In this document: piece after piece, positions 3,123 through 13,006 of the stretch
Layout: each line of letters starts with the position of its first letter
Numbering within the stretch: position 1 is the first letter of the stretch
DNA from: Lentisphaerota bacterium
Lineage (GTDB): Bacteria > Verrucomicrobiota > Lentisphaeria > Victivallales > Victivallaceae
Assembly: GCA_015061865.1 (NCBI GenBank)
Contig: SUVU01000003.1
Location: 1 to 45,461 of the forward strand
Direction of reading: 5' to 3'
DNA: 45,461 nucleotides
Notes under the pieces: generated by a model
What the model saw: only the letters and a program-made list of their open reading frames with translations
What the model was told of the DNA's origin: nothing
The model's database searches: none
Position numbers and translations under genes: made by a program

Positions 3123-4523
3123 ATGGAAAGAAAAACAGTCAGTCAGGCTCCCATATATGTCCGTGATGCATTGAATCGGGCAGCGAAATGTGCGGCGGCG
3201 GGAGATTTTGACAATGCCATTATGACCTTGTTGCCGGTGATCCGTAATAATCCTGCGGTGGCAATGCTTTATGATAAAATCCGCGAATACGAACTGGGCA
3301 GATTGCGTACCCAGGGAGGCGGAGTCAAGTTTTTGGCAGGATTGTTTGCTTTATTCAAAGTGCCGGTGATCCGTATTGTCGGGATCACTGATCCGGTAAA
3401 GGCAATGGCGATGTGCGAATCATCGTTGGCGTTTTGCGTTGACAACAGTTTGATGCTTTCCACGCTGGCGGCGGTTGCCAGAGCTGCGGATGCGCCCTGG
3501 GCTGAAGCGACGTCATATATGGTGTTGAATAAGTTGCATCCCATTAAAAGCCCGGGACAGTTGCGGAATATGGCAGAGGCGATGCAGCGCAATGGTCAGG
3601 CATTGGATGCGTTGAAAATTCAGCATGATATGGTGTCCAAACAGCAGGTGAAAACTCTTGCTGATAAATCTGATTTGCGTTCAGCAATGGCATTGGCAAG
3701 TATCGAACGCGGTAAATTCAATAACAAAAAATCCAACAAAGCCAATACTGCGGATGCCGAAGATGCGGTCATTCAGCAGTTGCTTGACGGTACCATCCAT
3801 GATGCTTCGCAGGCGCAGTTGCTGATTGAAAAATTTACTGCTGAATTACGTAAAAATGACTCGATCGACATGCGGCGCAAGCTGGCTGAAGCGTATATGG
3901 TCGCTGAAAAATATGAGGATGCATTGCGGGAATACCGTTCGGTCGCAGAAAAAGTCGGCGTTACCGATCCGGTTTTGGACAAACATATTGAAAAAGCCTA
4001 TATCGCTCAGCTCAATGAGGGGATCAAACAGTTGCGGGCAACCCCGGAAAGTTTTGAAGAACCCGAAGCCCAGATCGCCGAATTGGAGGAGGAGATCGCC
4101 TCTTACCGTTGGCGTCATGCGGTGCGCCGGGCTGAAATGTTCCCCAATGATATGCAGCTGCAGTTTGATTTGGGGGAATTGCAGTTTGAGCGCAATATGA
4201 TCGACGAAGCGATTGCCACTTTTACTGCGGTTGCAGAAAATCCGCAGAAACGTCGCGGCAGTTTGGTCTATCTCGGCAGATGTGCATTGTTGAAAAATGA
4301 TGCTGCACGGGCAGTGGAGTTGCTCAGTACTGCGGTTAATGATATGGCCCGCATGGATAAATATAAACGCGAAGCTCTCTATTATCTGGGCAATGCCCGT
4401 GAGGCTGTCGGTGATAATACCGGAGCGTTTGAGGCTTACCGGCAAATCAGTGTGAGCATGGAAAATTACCGTGATGTTCCTCAGCGCATGAGTGCGTTGC
4501 AGGGTGCGATGGAATCTAAATAA
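3123..4523 (+). CDS. Tetratricopeptide-repeat protein, cytoplasmic
   Basis: This 466-residue protein of helical repeats has no signal peptide. TPR-like pairs are visible near residues 20-60 (AAAGDFDNAIMTLLPVI), 255-290 (YMVAEKYEDALREYRSVAE) and 345-455 (FDLGELQFERNMIDEAIATF, YLGRCALLKNDAARAVELL, YYLGNAREAVGDNTGAFEAY). Such repeats act as protein-binding scaffolds; the partner is not identifiable from sequence. The gene is followed 32 bases later by the TRKT-repeat membrane-anchored protein, and the two appear to be one transcription unit ending at the hairpin at 5405-5442. The start ATG has only a weak ribosome-binding site (GGA about ten bases upstream). The function is unknown. Confidence 0.85.
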   Translation: MERKTVSQAPIYVRDALNRAAKCAAAGDFDNAIMTLLPVIRNNPAVAMLYDKIREYELGRLRTQGGGVKFLAGLFALFKVPVIRIVGITDPVKAMAMCESSLAFCVDNSLMLSTLAAVARAADAPWAEATSYMVLNKLHPIKSPGQLRNMAEAMQRNGQALDALKIQHDMVSKQQVKTLADKSDLRSAMALASIERGKFNNKKSNKANTADAEDAVIQQLLDGTIHDASQAQLLIEKFTAELRKNDSIDMRRKLAEAYMVAEKYEDALREYRSVAEKVGVTDPVLDKHIEKAYIAQLNEGIKQLRATPESFEEPEAQIAELEEEIASYRWRHAVRRAEMFPNDMQLQFDLGELQFERNMIDEAIATFTAVAENPQKRRGSLVYLGRCALLKNDAARAVELLSTAVNDMARMDKYKREALYYLGNAREAVGDNTGAFEAYRQISVSMENYRDVPQRMSALQGAMESK

Positions 4524-4555
4524 AATTAACATATTTTACGAAAGGAACAATGCAA

Positions 4556-5380
4556 ATGGCAGAGGAAAACAACAGCATGGCTTCCGCCCCGATGGAAGAT
4601 ACCAGAACCCGTAAAACAGTGCGCTTGCGTTCGATCGCCAGTGAAGTGGCTGCCGCTGCACCTGCGGCTGCTGCCCCCGCCGCTCCTGCCCCGGCAGCGC
4701 CTGCGGCAGCTCCTGTGGCTGATGTTGACAATACAATGACCCGCAAAACGATAAAACTCCGCCCGATGCGCCCGGAAGTGTCTGCTGCTCCGACGCCAGT
4801 CGCTCCTGTGGCTGCTCCGGCCCCTGCCGCTCCGACGCCGGTCGCTCCTGTTGCTGCTCCGGCCCCTGCCGCTCCGACGCCGGTCGCTCCGGTGGCATTG
4901 GAGGACGATACCCGTACCCGTAAAACGGTGATGATCCGTCCGGCGGTCAAAGCTGCTCCTGCGGCAACTCCGGCTGCTGCCCCTGCTGCGGTTGAAGATG
5001 ATGACCGTACAGTAAAAATCACCCGTCCGGCTCCGAAACCGATCACGTCCAAGCCGGTTGCTCCGGCTGCGGCACCGAAACCGCTGGTTCCGGGGAATTC
5101 CGGCGGGGTTCCGTTAAAACCTGCCGCCCCTGCCGCCCCGTCTCCGGTTGCTTCTGCCCCGGTCGCTCCGTCCCCGGTCGCTCCGGCTGCAGTCGGTGAA
5201 AAAATCCAACCTGAAGTCATGGACGATGTTGAGGTTGCTCCAGCTGGATGTTCAAAGGCGGTGACGATCATTGCGGCATTGGCATTGATCAGCGTTTTGG
5301 GTACGGCGGTGTTGACGACTGTGCATTACCTGAAATATGAACAGGGTATTGAGATTTCCATACCCGGCTTGTCAAAGTGA
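4556..5380 (+). CDS. Ala/Pro-rich protein with repeated TRKT motifs and C-terminal membrane anchor
   Basis: I do not recognise a family. About 80 percent of the protein is low-complexity Ala/Pro, with four spaced copies of a basic-Thr motif: TRTRKTVRLR (residues 16-25), TMTRKTIKLRP (about 60-70), TRTRKTVMIRP (about 119-129) and a degenerate DRTVKITRP (about 149-158). Acidic residues precede each one. A hydrophobic stretch near residues 235-258 is followed by a short tail, as in a tail-anchored inner-membrane protein with the long arm in the cytoplasm. The preferred start is the ATG at 4556, nine bases after AAAGGA; an ATG at 4550 is possible but too close. The context is the TPR protein upstream, which may be its partner (inference). 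Confidence 0.8.
   Translation: MAEENNSMASAPMEDTRTRKTVRLRSIASEVAAAAPAAAAPAAPAPAAPAAAPVADVDNTMTRKTIKLRPMRPEVSAAPTPVAPVAAPAPAAPTPVAPVAAPAPAAPTPVAPVALEDDTRTRKTVMIRPAVKAAPAATPAAAPAAVEDDDRTVKITRPAPKPITSKPVAPAAAPKPLVPGNSGGVPLKPAAPAAPSPVASAPVAPSPVAPAAVGEKIQPEVMDDVEVAPAGCSKAVTIIAALALISVLGTAVLTTVHYLKYEQGIEISIPGLSK
4787..4894 (+). repeat. 42-base tandem repeat, about 2.6 copies, inside a coding region
   Basis: Two full 42-base copies (4787-4828, 4829-4870) and a partial third copy encode the 14-residue unit APTPVAPVAAPAPA. The copies are nearly identical at the DNA level, so they arose by recent duplication and could vary in number between strains. The reading frame is kept. Confidence 0.85.
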
Positions 5381-8393: not shown

Positions 8394-9686
8394 TTGATCG
8401 AACTGGAGAAAGAGCTGGCTCAAATCAAGTCCCAGAAAGCATTTCTGGTCGGATTTCAGGAGCGTGATGAGGATACTGCATTGATCGCAGGTCAACTTGA
8501 GGAGTTGGCTGATCTGGTGCGTAATTTGGATATTATCCCATTGGCCCCTGAGATCGTCAGGTTGCGCAACCATCAGGTGCGATACCGCTGCGGTACCGGC
8601 AAAGCTGAAGAAGTTGCCCAGCTGGTACAGGAAAGCGAAGCGGATGTATTGGTTTTTGATTCAGAATTAACTCCATCTCAACAGCGTAATTGGGAACGTT
8701 TGGCCAAGTGTCCGGTAGCAGGGCGTGAGGAGATCATTCTGGAAATTTTTGCATCCAGAGCGCAAACCAAAGAGGCTGTTTTACAAGTCGAACTGGCAAA
8801 AATGGAATATGCCCTGCCGCGCTTGAAACGGGCATGGACTCACTTTTCCCGGCAGCGTGGCGGCGGTGCCACCAACCGCGGCGAAGGGGAGGCGCAGTTG
8901 GAAACTGATCGCCGGCTGCTGAAAAGGAGAATTCAGCAGCTGCATGATGAGTTGGCTCTGGTGCGTAAACAGCGGGCTTCTCAGCGGAAGTCCCGGTTGC
9001 GCCGTCCGGTACTGCAGGGGGCGATCGTGGGGTATACCAACGTCGGCAAATCTTCGCTGCTGAATGCGTTGACCGGCGCAGATGTGCTGGTGAAAGATCA
9101 GTTATTCGCCACATTGGATCCAACGGCACGGAAAATTTTATTACCGGGAAATCTGGAAATGGTGTTGACAGATACTGTCGGTTTTGTCCGCAAGTTGCCG
9201 CACCAGCTGGTGGAGGCATTCAAATCAACTCTTGAAGAGGCGGTGTTGGCAGATATTCTGCTGTTGGTTTTGGACATATCCAGCGATACTGTCGATACTG
9301 AATGGGAAACCACGCTCGGAGTGTTGAAAGAGTTGGGCGCAGATGAAAAAAATATCCGGGTCGTATTCAATAAGTGCGACCGTTTGGATATGGAGCGTGA
9401 TGCAGTGAAACTTGCCAGGTTGCGGGGGATGTTTCCGGATGCAGTTTATCTCTCTGCCAAAAACAATACCGGACTGGATGAGTTGAAGCAGGTATTGGCA
9501 GATTTTGCCGGTAAGTCCAGGAATTTGCTGCGGGTGGTGATCCCGCCGCACCGGCATGATTTGATCGCATTGGCGCATGAGTGCGGCAATGTATATGAGG
9601 AAAATTATACGCCTGAAGGCATGGCGGAAATAGTATTGGCGATCGAGGAAAAATTTCAACACCGTTTCAAGGAGTTTTTGCAATGA
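8394..9686 (+). CDS. hflX: GTPase HflX, ribosome-associated
   Basis: HflX is a TRAFAC-class GTPase that binds 50S/70S ribosomes and rescues or splits stalled ribosomes. An N-terminal domain (about 1-200) contains the glycine-rich linker RGGGATNRGEGEAQLETDRR. The G domain starts near residue 212 with GYTNVGKSSLLNAL (G1), then FATLDPTAR (G2), DTVGFVRKLP (G3), NKCD (G4) and SAK (G5). The start codon appears to be TTG at 8394, with AGGAAA eight bases upstream, just after the malic enzyme stop. At 430 residues the length is normal. The stop overlaps the next gene's ATG by four bases. Confidence 0.93.
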   Translation: MIELEKELAQIKSQKAFLVGFQERDEDTALIAGQLEELADLVRNLDIIPLAPEIVRLRNHQVRYRCGTGKAEEVAQLVQESEADVLVFDSELTPSQQRNWERLAKCPVAGREEIILEIFASRAQTKEAVLQVELAKMEYALPRLKRAWTHFSRQRGGGATNRGEGEAQLETDRRLLKRRIQQLHDELALVRKQRASQRKSRLRRPVLQGAIVGYTNVGKSSLLNALTGADVLVKDQLFATLDPTARKILLPGNLEMVLTDTVGFVRKLPHQLVEAFKSTLEEAVLADILLLVLDISSDTVDTEWETTLGVLKELGADEKNIRVVFNKCDRLDMERDAVKLARLRGMFPDAVYLSAKNNTGLDELKQVLADFAGKSRNLLRVVIPPHRHDLIALAHECGNVYEENYTPEGMAEIVLAIEEKFQHRFKEFLQ

Positions 9687-12600
9687 ATATCCGATGTGTG
9701 TGTGTAGCGGTATTGCTGACCGCTTGTTTTTCTGCACTGGCGGCACCGTCGCCGTGGGATTCCTGGCGTTCCGGTTACACCTGTTTTGAGCAGGGGGAAT
9801 CTCTGCGTGAACGGGGACGATATTCTGAAGCTGTGGAAATGTTTGAGAAAGCCAAGCAGTGTTATCTGGATGTCAGATCCGCCCGTCCGGACTGGAATCA
9901 GCGGGTGATTTCTGACCGTTTGCGTGATTGTGAAGTGCAACTCCGGCAAATTCGCCGCTTGCTCGGAACAGATAATACTCCTGCCGGCGTGAATGTCGCA
10001 AATTTGGACAGTTCCGATAATCAGGTCAGAAAACCTGAACCTGAAACTCCGCAGAGTGATTCCGAGTCAAATGCTTTGAGCCGGGAGCTGTATCAGGTGA
10101 AAGCTGAATTGGAACAAACCAAAAAACAACTGCAGAAGCAGCGCAATTTCGAAACCGAAATGGCGGCATTGATGCGGGATCGCAGGGTCGCCGAAGAAAA
10201 ACTTGGTTTGTTGGAAAAACGTTACCGGGAATTGCAAAAAGAAAAAGGTTCATCCGGAGCCGATACAGCGAATTTGGAACAGCGCTTGGTGTTGGAGAAA
10301 ATGGAGTTGGAACGCTTTCGCAAACGTCTTGTCGCAGCGGAAAAACAATTGAGAGATACTCAGGAACAATTAAAAACGGCTCAACTTGGGCGCAGTGCTG
10401 CTGAAAAAAGCAAACAGTTGATCGAGGGCGAGTTGAAGCGTCGTGATATAGAGATTTCTCAATTGCAGGAGGATAAAAAACGCGCCGAGACCCGGGCTGA
10501 AAAAATGAGCCAATCCTCCAATATAACTCCGGCATTGAAAAAAGAACTGGAAGAGCTTGCGGTCGCATATCGTAATGTTCAGGGGGTGTTGGGACAGCGT
10601 GAACAGGAATTGCGGCAGGTGAAAAGTGATTTGCAACAGCAGCGCTCCGAAGCCAACGTGAGTGCAGTCGAGATCACAAATTTGAGAAATAGGAATCGGG
10701 AGCTGGAGGAGGATGTGAAACGTTTTTCTGAAAAATCTGTCGAGTTGGAAAAACGTTTGGAACGTCGCAACAGTGAAGATTTTCAGGCTGCTGCTGCTGC
10801 CAAAGAAACCCGGGAAAAGTTGGAAAAAGAAAATTTAAGTTTGCAAAAAGAGTTGATCTCATTGCGTGGCAATCTGGATGCCAAAAATGCCGCAGTGACT
10901 CAGGCTGACCGCAAAATAAAATCACTGTCATCCGAGTTGATTTCAGTGCGTGCGGCGGCTTTGAAAAATGAAGCCGCTGTGAAAAAATTGACGGTGGAAA
11001 ATGCCAATTTGCAGCACGTAAAAGCGCAAAACGAAAAAATGAAGCGGGATTTTCAGGCTTTGGCAGCGGAAAACCGCGAAAACAAAATTTTGGCAGAGGC
11101 CGCCAAGCCCCGGGAAGCGGAATTGGAACGGGCAAAATTGATGCTGTTGGAAATGGATCGTTTGAAACGTGATCTTGCCAAAGAACAGCGTCTGAATTCA
11201 GAGTTGAAAGAGGCATACGGACGCAGCCAAAATGAAATGCGTTCTCTGCGGGAGCGCTCCGCTGAATTTGATGCCGCCCGCCGTAAATTGATCGAACTTG
11301 ATGCTGCCGCAAAAGAGATCAGCCGTTTGCAGGAGGTCGAAAAAGAGTTGAATAAAATCCGGGGCAGGGAAGCTGAACTGGCGCAGATAAAAATTCGCAT
11401 GGGCGAATTGAATTCTCAACTCCGGGAGCGTGATGCCGTGATCTCAGATTGCCGGAAAATAATTGACGGTCAGAAAAAACAGCTGGACGAATTGACCGGA
11501 GCCCAAGCAGAGGTATCACGTTTAAGTCGCAGTAATGAGGAGTTCAAAGCGATGATCGCCAATCAGAACTCTGAACTTGACCGTTTGAATACTGCGCTGA
11601 AAAAAACGGGAAAAAATACCGGTTCCAATGTGGATAAACTTGAATTGGAGCGTTATCGCAAACTTGCCGGACAAATCGGTCCTTTGACCGACCGGTTGCG
11701 TAAAATTCAGCTGGATGCTGCGGAAAAAGAAAAAAGATTCAATTCGCAAATAGAGAATTTGAGACGTTCTGAAGCGCGTGTCAAACAAGATTTGCTGCTG
11801 CGGGAAAAAGAACTTGGCGATCTTAAAAAAATCAATTCGGAATTGGCAGATTACCGCAAAAATTCAGCGGTGGCGCTGCGTGATAAAGTAGATTCATCCC
11901 GCCTGGCACGACTGGATAGAGAGGTGACTGCGCTTAATAAACTTAATGCCGAAATCGCCGCAGAGAGGGATAAATTACAGACCGAACTGGAACGGCTCCG
12001 CAAGGGCGAAAATGCCGATTCGGAAGCTGAAAAAATGATTCCGGCAGTTGCTCCGGAACAGGCGGCATCCAATGGCATGATCGCTGAAAAAGAGGGAAAA
12101 ATCGAACTGGCGATATGGAACTATCAACAGGCTTTGGCAGGGGATGAAAATTTGTCGGCAGTTCATTTGCGTTTGGGAATGCTGCTGATGCGCCGCAATA
12201 ATTACAATGCGGCAGTTCCGCATTTGAGCCGGGCTTTTGCAGCTTATCCGGAGAATGTCGATGTGGCATTGACTTTGGCGAAAAGTTATTTGGCATTAAA
12301 GCGTTATGGCAATGCCCAGAGCGTGGTGGAACCGCTGTTGACCAGACATGGCAATAATGCCAAAGTCCAGATGACTGCGGCGCTGATTGATGCCGGCAGC
12401 GGCAATATGGTCAGAGCAGAGGAACGGTTGCAGACGGCACTGCGTTTGGAACCGCAAAATGTGGATATTTATCTGGCGTTGGCAAAACTTTTGACCGCAT
12501 CTGTCACAGACCGGCTCGGTGAAGCGGCGTTGGCGTATGAAACTGCTCGCCGCTTGGGGGGGGATCCGGAACCGTTTTTGGAAAATAAATTAGGTAAACT

Positions 12601-13006
12601 GCTGGATCATCGCCGGGAGTTGGTGCGCTTTATGAGCAGTGCCGCCAGAGAAGCTGAATTGGGTAAAGATTGGCGTTCGGCAGAGTGGTACTACAAAAAA
12701 ATCATTGCCGAAAAACATCCTGAATATGTGCCGTTTCTGGCTTTCGCCCAGTGGAAATCCGGCAATGTTGCCGGAGCTAAAGAAACTTTGGAGTTTCATA
12801 AACCCAGCCGGCTCGGGATGGTAGTGACTGCGATGATGGCATTGGATGAAAAAGATGAAACCGCCGCACTGCGGGCTGCTCAACAGAGTACCGGCGCAAA
12901 AATCCCGACCGAATGGGTGGGGATGAATCTGGAATTGGAACGGCTGAAAAAAGAGTGGTTCAATTCTTCTGCGGCAAAACTGCTTTTGCGGGGAATTACC
13001 CGTTGA
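9683..13006 (+). CDS. Large exported coiled-coil protein with C-terminal TPR domain
   Basis: The protein has 1107 residues. The N-terminus is a signal sequence (hydrophobic residues 5-21); cleavage could be at ALAA/P by signal peptidase I, or at Cys15 in LTAC if it is a lipoprotein. A helical segment with TPR character follows (residues 33-65). Residues about 115-790 are almost continuous heptad-rich coiled coil full of Lys, Glu and Leu. Residues about 795-1090 form tetratricopeptide repeats (IWNYQQALAGDENLSAVHLRLG, ALRLEPQNVDIYLALAKLL). It resembles structural or scaffold proteins of the envelope; no enzyme motif is seen. A run of eight G at 12556-12563 leaves the frame intact. The 3' end overlaps the convergent amidohydrolase by 11 bases. 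Confidence 0.85.
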   Translation: MNIRCVCVAVLLTACFSALAAPSPWDSWRSGYTCFEQGESLRERGRYSEAVEMFEKAKQCYLDVRSARPDWNQRVISDRLRDCEVQLRQIRRLLGTDNTPAGVNVANLDSSDNQVRKPEPETPQSDSESNALSRELYQVKAELEQTKKQLQKQRNFETEMAALMRDRRVAEEKLGLLEKRYRELQKEKGSSGADTANLEQRLVLEKMELERFRKRLVAAEKQLRDTQEQLKTAQLGRSAAEKSKQLIEGELKRRDIEISQLQEDKKRAETRAEKMSQSSNITPALKKELEELAVAYRNVQGVLGQREQELRQVKSDLQQQRSEANVSAVEITNLRNRNRELEEDVKRFSEKSVELEKRLERRNSEDFQAAAAAKETREKLEKENLSLQKELISLRGNLDAKNAAVTQADRKIKSLSSELISVRAAALKNEAAVKKLTVENANLQHVKAQNEKMKRDFQALAAENRENKILAEAAKPREAELERAKLMLLEMDRLKRDLAKEQRLNSELKEAYGRSQNEMRSLRERSAEFDAARRKLIELDAAAKEISRLQEVEKELNKIRGREAELAQIKIRMGELNSQLRERDAVISDCRKIIDGQKKQLDELTGAQAEVSRLSRSNEEFKAMIANQNSELDRLNTALKKTGKNTGSNVDKLELERYRKLAGQIGPLTDRLRKIQLDAAEKEKRFNSQIENLRRSEARVKQDLLLREKELGDLKKINSELADYRKNSAVALRDKVDSSRLARLDREVTALNKLNAEIAAERDKLQTELERLRKGENADSEAEKMIPAVAPEQAASNGMIAEKEGKIELAIWNYQQALAGDENLSAVHLRLGMLLMRRNNYNAAVPHLSRAFAAYPENVDVALTLAKSYLALKRYGNAQSVVEPLLTRHGNNAKVQMTAALIDAGSGNMVRAEERLQTALRLEPQNVDIYLALAKLLTASVTDRLGEAALAYETARRLGGDPEPFLENKLGKLLDHRRELVRFMSSAAREAELGKDWRSAEWYYKKIIAEKHPEYVPFLAFAQWKSGNVAGAKETLEFHKPSRLGMVVTAMMALDEKDETAALRAAQQSTGAKIPTEWVGMNLELERLKKEWFNSSAAKLLLRGITR

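Follow-up and report, generated by a model that had tools for sequence, protein, structure and literature searches.

A membrane-anchored disordered protein of Lentisphaeria with repeated, strictly threonine-centred motifs: a candidate docking array for FHA proteins

The protein encoded at 4556-5380 on the plus strand of the window (the whole stretch of 45,461 nucleotides that was analysed) combines a disordered Ala/Pro-rich arm, a repeated threonine-centred motif, and a single C-terminal membrane anchor. We read this array protein as a phosphothreonine docking platform for FHA proteins, a reading to which we assign a probability of about 0.47. With its arm presumably on the cytoplasmic side, the protein would be a disordered scaffold tethered to the membrane and displaying multiple copies of the short linear motif T-x-(K/R)-(L/I/V), which is elaborated to DTxTR(K/R)T(V/I)xL(K/R)P in the genus of the window. 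The motif threonines would most likely be phosphorylated by Hanks-type Ser/Thr kinases, and the phosphorylated motifs would be bound by FHA proteins, above all by a small C-terminally anchored one that is conserved in the order. As an output, the degree of phosphorylation of the array would determine how many signalling or envelope proteins are collected at the membrane, and the number of motifs would set the valency.

The array gene, its parts, and the gene upstream of it are arranged as follows.

3123-4523, plus strand: TPR-superhelix protein of 466 residues, a conserved neighbour in the genus and a member of a phylum-wide family.
4556-5380, plus strand: array protein, with a disordered Ala/Pro-rich N-terminal arm and a single C-terminal membrane anchor; the start may alternatively be the in-frame ATG at 4550, and relatives begin with MA(D/E).
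4598-4630, plus strand: motif 1, DTRTRKTVRLR, at residue 15.
4727-4762, plus strand: motif 2, DNTMTRKTIKLR, at residue 58.
4782-4896, plus strand: Ala/Pro linker with a 42-bp tandem repeat in 2.7 copies, a repeat at the DNA level.
4904-4939, plus strand: motif 3, DDTRTRKTVMIR, at residue 117.
5000-5029, plus strand: motif 4, DDRTVKITRP, at residue 149, of a distinct acidic class and conserved in close relatives.
5258-5314, plus strand: predicted transmembrane helix, residues 235-253, with a hydropathy of 2.51; a transmembrane helix is also present in the model of the relative L083.
5315-5377, plus strand: post-anchor tail of 21 residues ending in PGLSK, of which PGL..K is kept in most relatives.

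Ala or Pro accounts for 115 of the 274 residues of the protein, the arm is predicted to be disordered, and one strong hydrophobic helix (residues 235-253) lies near the C-terminus, in agreement with the anchored disordered arm that had been proposed. The original prediction had also counted four TRKT-V-x-(L/I)-R motifs. Three of these are copies of TRKT-(V/I)-x-(L/I)-R, but the fourth (DDRTVKITRP) belongs to the other class and has only T-V-K-I in common with them; the acidic residues said to precede the motifs are found ahead of all four. The pattern TRKT[VI]x[LI]R occurs 3 times in the protein and never in 20,000 composition shuffles, and the looser core T[VI]x[LI] occurs 4 times against a mean of 0.25 in composition shuffles. 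The three TRKT copies of the window gene differ in their synonymous codons and thus do not stem from a recent DNA duplication. In 89 motif instances from relatives, the residues are nearly constant although the codons for Thr, Arg, Val, and Leu differ, which indicates that selection acts on the protein. By contrast, the linker changes in length and contains DNA-level tandem repeats. Strong motif conservation together with codon variation points to a selected protein, as had been supposed from the conserved motifs on a variable linker.

The assembly that contains the window as its contig C91 (G000) measures 2.35 Mb and is 76% complete. Its closest named relatives, judged by the TPR gene, are MAGs of Lentisphaeria, some of them from sheep colon, yak colon, and goat rumen. 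A gap of about 30 bases separates the array gene from the TPR gene upstream of it. The TPR gene is preceded by rnfC (partial, identified by eye), rnfD, rnfG, and rnfE, and the array gene is followed by a kdsB-like gene, a histidine-phosphatase-family gene, malic enzyme, and an HflX-like GTPase. The rnf cluster (1-2995) stops at rnfE, with neither rnfA nor rnfB before the TPR gene, and its RnfE has a C-terminal extension with a CxxCxxC pattern. A few genes downstream of the array gene, a large TPR protein of 1107 residues is encoded at 9683-13006. A minus-strand ORF of 251 residues (4516-5271) runs antisense to the array gene; such a long ORF is to be expected opposite Ala/Pro codons, and it is probably no gene. 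In two different families (loci L044 and L161), a HAD-family hydrolase gene was recognized by eye 3' of the array gene.

The TPR gene is present in 57 of 60 relatives, and within the genus (34 genomes including our own) it is absent solely from G002. In 33/33 genus genomes that have the TPR gene, a motif-bearing ORF lies directly 3' of it, where adjacency was defined by an ORF start at -250 to +200 bases and at least one match to a broad motif pattern, with degenerate cases (L075) counted. G002, which is 85% complete, is also the sole genus genome of the 34 to be without a clear motif match, and its absences may reflect an assembly gap. A motif profile built from hand-typed fragments (A1) matched 32 of the 34 genus genomes at E <= 1e-3, and all listed matches at that level fall in one ORF per genome; in our own genome, for which a motif search had been suggested, all three matches of this profile fall in the array protein. 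The 76 distinct motif instances of the genus give the consensus (D/E)-D-T-x-T-R-(K/R/M/V)-T-(V/I/L)-x-L-(K/R)-P, which in part of the genus is preceded by an (R/E)xTDT(G/S)NL element that is found in family f2 too. Several counts leave out L043, L078, and L089, because these loci run off the contig, as well as L041, whose frame is broken ahead of the anchor. An unconserved motif or a missing anchor would have spoken against the original prediction; in the genus, the motif is conserved and the anchor is present.

Proteins of the same layout exist in other families of the order, where the TRKT part is reduced to (K/R)(K/R)T(I/V)(K/R)LKP. The TRKT motif is therefore strongly conserved in the genus, as had been claimed, but TRKT itself is a local elaboration, and the part shared across clades is T-x-(K/R)-(L/I/V). 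Proteins of the order contain 2 to 13 T-(V/I/L)-x-(L/I/V/M) motifs each, with the exception of L236 (G036), which adjoins the TPR gene, is matched by its C-terminus, and has zero T-V-x-L motifs by the pattern used; it is possibly a natural loss of the motif. The second conserved stretch of the family consists of the anchor and the PGL..K tail. A2, a profile of this C-terminal stretch, gave matches at E <= 1e-3 in 65 of 288 genomes of the phylum, one of these matches (G304) being an 86-residue frame and no array protein. Fifteen weak A1 matches were fetched, of which 11 are array proteins (L157-L167, with L158 cut by the contig end); the other 4 (L168-L171) were rejected as unrelated frames. 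Among 20 weak A2 matches outside the order, 14 are Ala/Pro-rich and C-terminally anchored, with motifs such as RRKTIRIKRP and KSETARIEL, and 6 (L213, L214, L216, L217, L220, and L221) are not array-like. A further profile (A7), built from the weak A2 matches outside the order and containing one motif with the others lying outside it, matched 80 of the 288 genomes at E <= 0.001, and A2 and A7 combined matched 130. In the loci returned by A7, the ORF was chosen by motif number and anchor, and its length is that of the matched frame in the rows compared; each of the 30 has 3 to 10 T-x-(K/R)-(L/I/V) motifs, and its anchor lies 7 to 34 residues before the C-terminus. The A2 and A7 profiles align with each other with a probability of 94% (E 9e-8). 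From these sequence comparisons, we conclude that the array proteins belong to a single phylum-wide family or else to a pair of closely related families.

Searches with 13 array proteins against Pfam and 12 against NCBIfam gave no named family over its curated cut-off. DnaX (NCBIfam, 9.9 bits, E 0.35) and Lactococcin (Pfam, 17.0 bits against a cut-off of 23.1) were dismissed as composition or chance matches. An identity with TonB was set aside as well: the anchor of TonB is N-terminal and that of the array protein is C-terminal, and a Pfam match is absent.

Threonine is strictly kept at the core position of the motif. The 76 distinct genus instances have Thr in 73, Ala in 3, and Ser in 0 cases. 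The residue before (V/I)(K/R)(L/I) is Thr in 93/102 cases in the genus (Ser 0), in 55/58 and 84/98 cases in two sets from the order (Ser 1 and 5), and in 26/38 cases beyond the order (Ser 0). Summed over the four sets, with six non-array A2 matches and, in the order set, L160 left out, Thr stands against Ser at 258 to 6, while Ser makes up 5-8% of the residues. The 30 A7 loci behave alike: the position before x-(K/R)-(L/I/V) is occupied by Thr 200 times and by Ser 9 times, compared with 20.0 (maximum 31) and 16.5, respectively, in shuffles. The presumed phosphoacceptor is thus Thr and not Ser. A high specificity for phosphothreonine is described for FHA domains (PMC3146460). A reader of this kind would impose such an avoidance of Ser. 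A kinase site alone or a β-strand peptide would be expected to tolerate Ser, or Val/Ile.

The kinases and FHA proteins that had been suggested for a check elsewhere in the genome are present. Our own genome has 4 kinase matches over the Pfam cut-off and 1 FHA match (PF00498, 57.5 bits), the latter with the canonical phosphothreonine-binding residues (IGRR, SGHH, and TNGT). Hanks kinases occur in 60/60 relatives and an FHA domain in 59/60; both are near-universal in these genomes, so their presence does not discriminate between readings. One of our kinases (343 residues, 4349-5377 of contig C24 of G000) has a hydrophobic C-terminal helix, as judged by eye; matches to it reach near the C-terminus in closer relatives and elsewhere cover the kinase domain only. 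Three of the four own-genome kinases were inspected by eye for the array motif, and none was seen. The FHA protein has the following position.

6485-7006 of L126 (contig C8 of G000): FHA protein of 173 residues with a C-terminal transmembrane helix and a TIDI (THTIDI) motif between the domain and the anchor.

Orthologues of this protein were found in 56 of the 60 relatives. All 30 that were examined end in a transmembrane helix and have T(I/V/L)(D/N)(L/I) in the arm, and a simple pattern of binding residues fits 21 of them. An ftsH-like gene was recognized by eye 3' of our FHA gene. No FHA gene was noticed beside the array gene in the loci inspected by eye. In family f3, the TPR gene is followed by a kinase gene in 5/5 genomes among the 60 relatives (L048, L055, L056, L057, and L059; four also by Pfam); the kinase gene stands there in place of the array gene, which is located elsewhere. 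The N-terminal arm of this kinase has TTLPM-like motifs, for example DTTLPM (by eye).

According to the original prediction, the motifs would be read by the adjacent TPR protein, an explanation that we regard as improbable. TPR grooves commonly bind peptides, and the neighbour is predicted by its model to fold as a TPR superhelix, that is, as a folded partner. The adjacency seen throughout the TPR-bearing genus genomes recurs in other members of f1 and f2, and f10, with 13 genomes that lack the TPR gene among the matches listed, also gave no credible array hit with A2 or A7; this double absence concerns a single clade and perhaps one event. Against the TPR protein as reader, the two genes are unlinked in f3, f4, part of f1, and the outside-order loci among the matches listed, and the TPR profile matched 240/288 phylum genomes, nearly always once per genome, compared with 130/288 for the array profiles; these co-occurrences are raw counts, uncorrected for relatedness. 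The array gene is in frame with the TPR stop at six loci, so that the two could be folded as a fused chain with AlphaFold. In the L083 chain, most of the TPR part is predicted at pLDDT >90 and residues 734-763 form the anchor helix, whereas the motifs are at pLDDT 30-48 like the linker, in an unphosphorylated model with six alignment rows over the arm; one stretch of the arm, beside the anchor, is at 46. These disordered motifs are a weak negative. Because the adjacency is limited to some families and the motifs are disordered in the model, the TPR protein as reader is unsupported, while the other part of the original prediction, an array of docking or phosphorylation sites, is backed by the conserved motifs, the disordered arm, the anchor, and the kinases and FHA proteins of the genome.

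An array that works independently of phosphorylation is a serious rival to phospho-docking, although we consider it unlikely on balance. In such an array, T-(V/I)-(K/R)-(L/I)-x-P would add as a β-strand to the groove of a folded partner, and the anchor would keep many copies of this partner at the membrane. The alternating hydrophobic and basic pattern, the β-branched residues, and the closing Pro of the motif suit strand addition, and the aliphatic residue at +3 is constrained as much as the Thr; however, if strand propensity were all that mattered, Val, Ile, or Ser could stand in place of the Thr, where they are almost absent. It is far less probable that the motifs are merely basic patches on a flexible tether, binding an anionic polymer or lipid without specific recognition. 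They are indeed locally basic within an Ala/Pro arm, but the strict Thr and aliphatic positions, the acidic motif class with a T-V-K-I core, and the acidic residues at -6 and -7 of the main class speak against this explanation. Phospho-docking itself is opposed by the minority of cores with Ala (3/76), by L236 without a motif, by the ubiquity of kinases and FHA proteins, and by the gene order: in the loci inspected by eye no FHA gene was noticed beside the array gene, and in f3 the kinase gene adjoins the TPR gene and not the array gene. The presence of a kinase gene after the TPR gene in f3 also counts in favour of phospho-docking. For PknA-dependent Thr sites of M. tuberculosis, a preference is described for acidic residues anywhere from -6 to -3, together with Leu/Val at +3 and Lys/Arg at +4 (PMC7164672). 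The array motif fits this pattern with D at -6, L at +3, and K/R at +4, and misses its acidic residue or Pro at -1 and its Pro at +2, having K/R at -1 and usually K/R at +2. T-V-K-L is also readable as pTxxL, and the +3 rule of FHA domains (pTxxL) is described as useful but disputed (PMC4037201).

The phospho-docking reading can be extended, rather tentatively, to a phylum-wide membrane hub, in which multivalent phosphothreonine tags, about 3 to about 10 in number between species, would serve anchored FHA proteins alongside separately encoded kinases, of which one is anchored, and a TPR partner that is conserved, as a counterpart of PknG-GarA split across genes. The sampled Lentisphaeria order encodes many Ser/Thr kinases and FHA proteins, and the array, conserved and substrate-like with its strict Thr, offers a directly testable handle on the roles of these kinases. 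Even in the absence of phosphorylation, the array would represent a widespread scaffold with a repeated motif and no name.

One of the closest known systems is described for the actinobacteria, where several phosphothreonines on the disordered arm of PknG recruit the FHA protein GarA and a TPR domain is part of the same protein (PMC8546545). The likeness to PknG-GarA/OdhI is that a multi-Thr disordered arm, an FHA protein as (here putative) reader, and a TPR scaffold belong to one system. By contrast, the arm, the kinase, the FHA reader, and the TPR protein are here encoded by separate genes, the arm and the FHA protein are C-terminally anchored, and the motif is T-x-(K/R)-(L/I/V) instead of ETTS. 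Our FHA protein scored 40.3 bits against an OdhI cut-off of 200 and so was not assigned to GarA/OdhI; it has no ETTS before its FHA domain and has THTIDI after the domain instead. In the type VI secretion system of Agrobacterium, the FHA protein Fha binds a phosphothreonine of the membrane protein TssL (PMC3953482), a pairing that resembles the one proposed here, where the phosphothreonine is putative; TssL-Fha involves one site and a dedicated secretion system, whereas the array has many sites and no secretion genes were noticed nearby. MmpS3 and FhaA of M. tuberculosis are reported to be phosphorylated on 16 and 23 sites, respectively (PMC7164672), and are thus multiply phosphorylated proteins, as the array with its candidate sites may be. 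The part of that report consulted describes no repeated identical motif in them, and the array protein, for its part, matches no named family. A search of open-licence papers found nothing on the array system, nor anything linking these kinases or FHA proteins to substrates. RNase E carries different motifs for different partners, whereas the array repeats one motif class. The C-terminal domain of RNase E is otherwise comparable, as a disordered region in which short motifs recruit partners (PMC11964227). Scaffolds of short motifs that feed phosphothreonine-FHA signalling are of a known kind; one motif, repeated along a protein that is anchored and phylum-wide, would be a new form of them.
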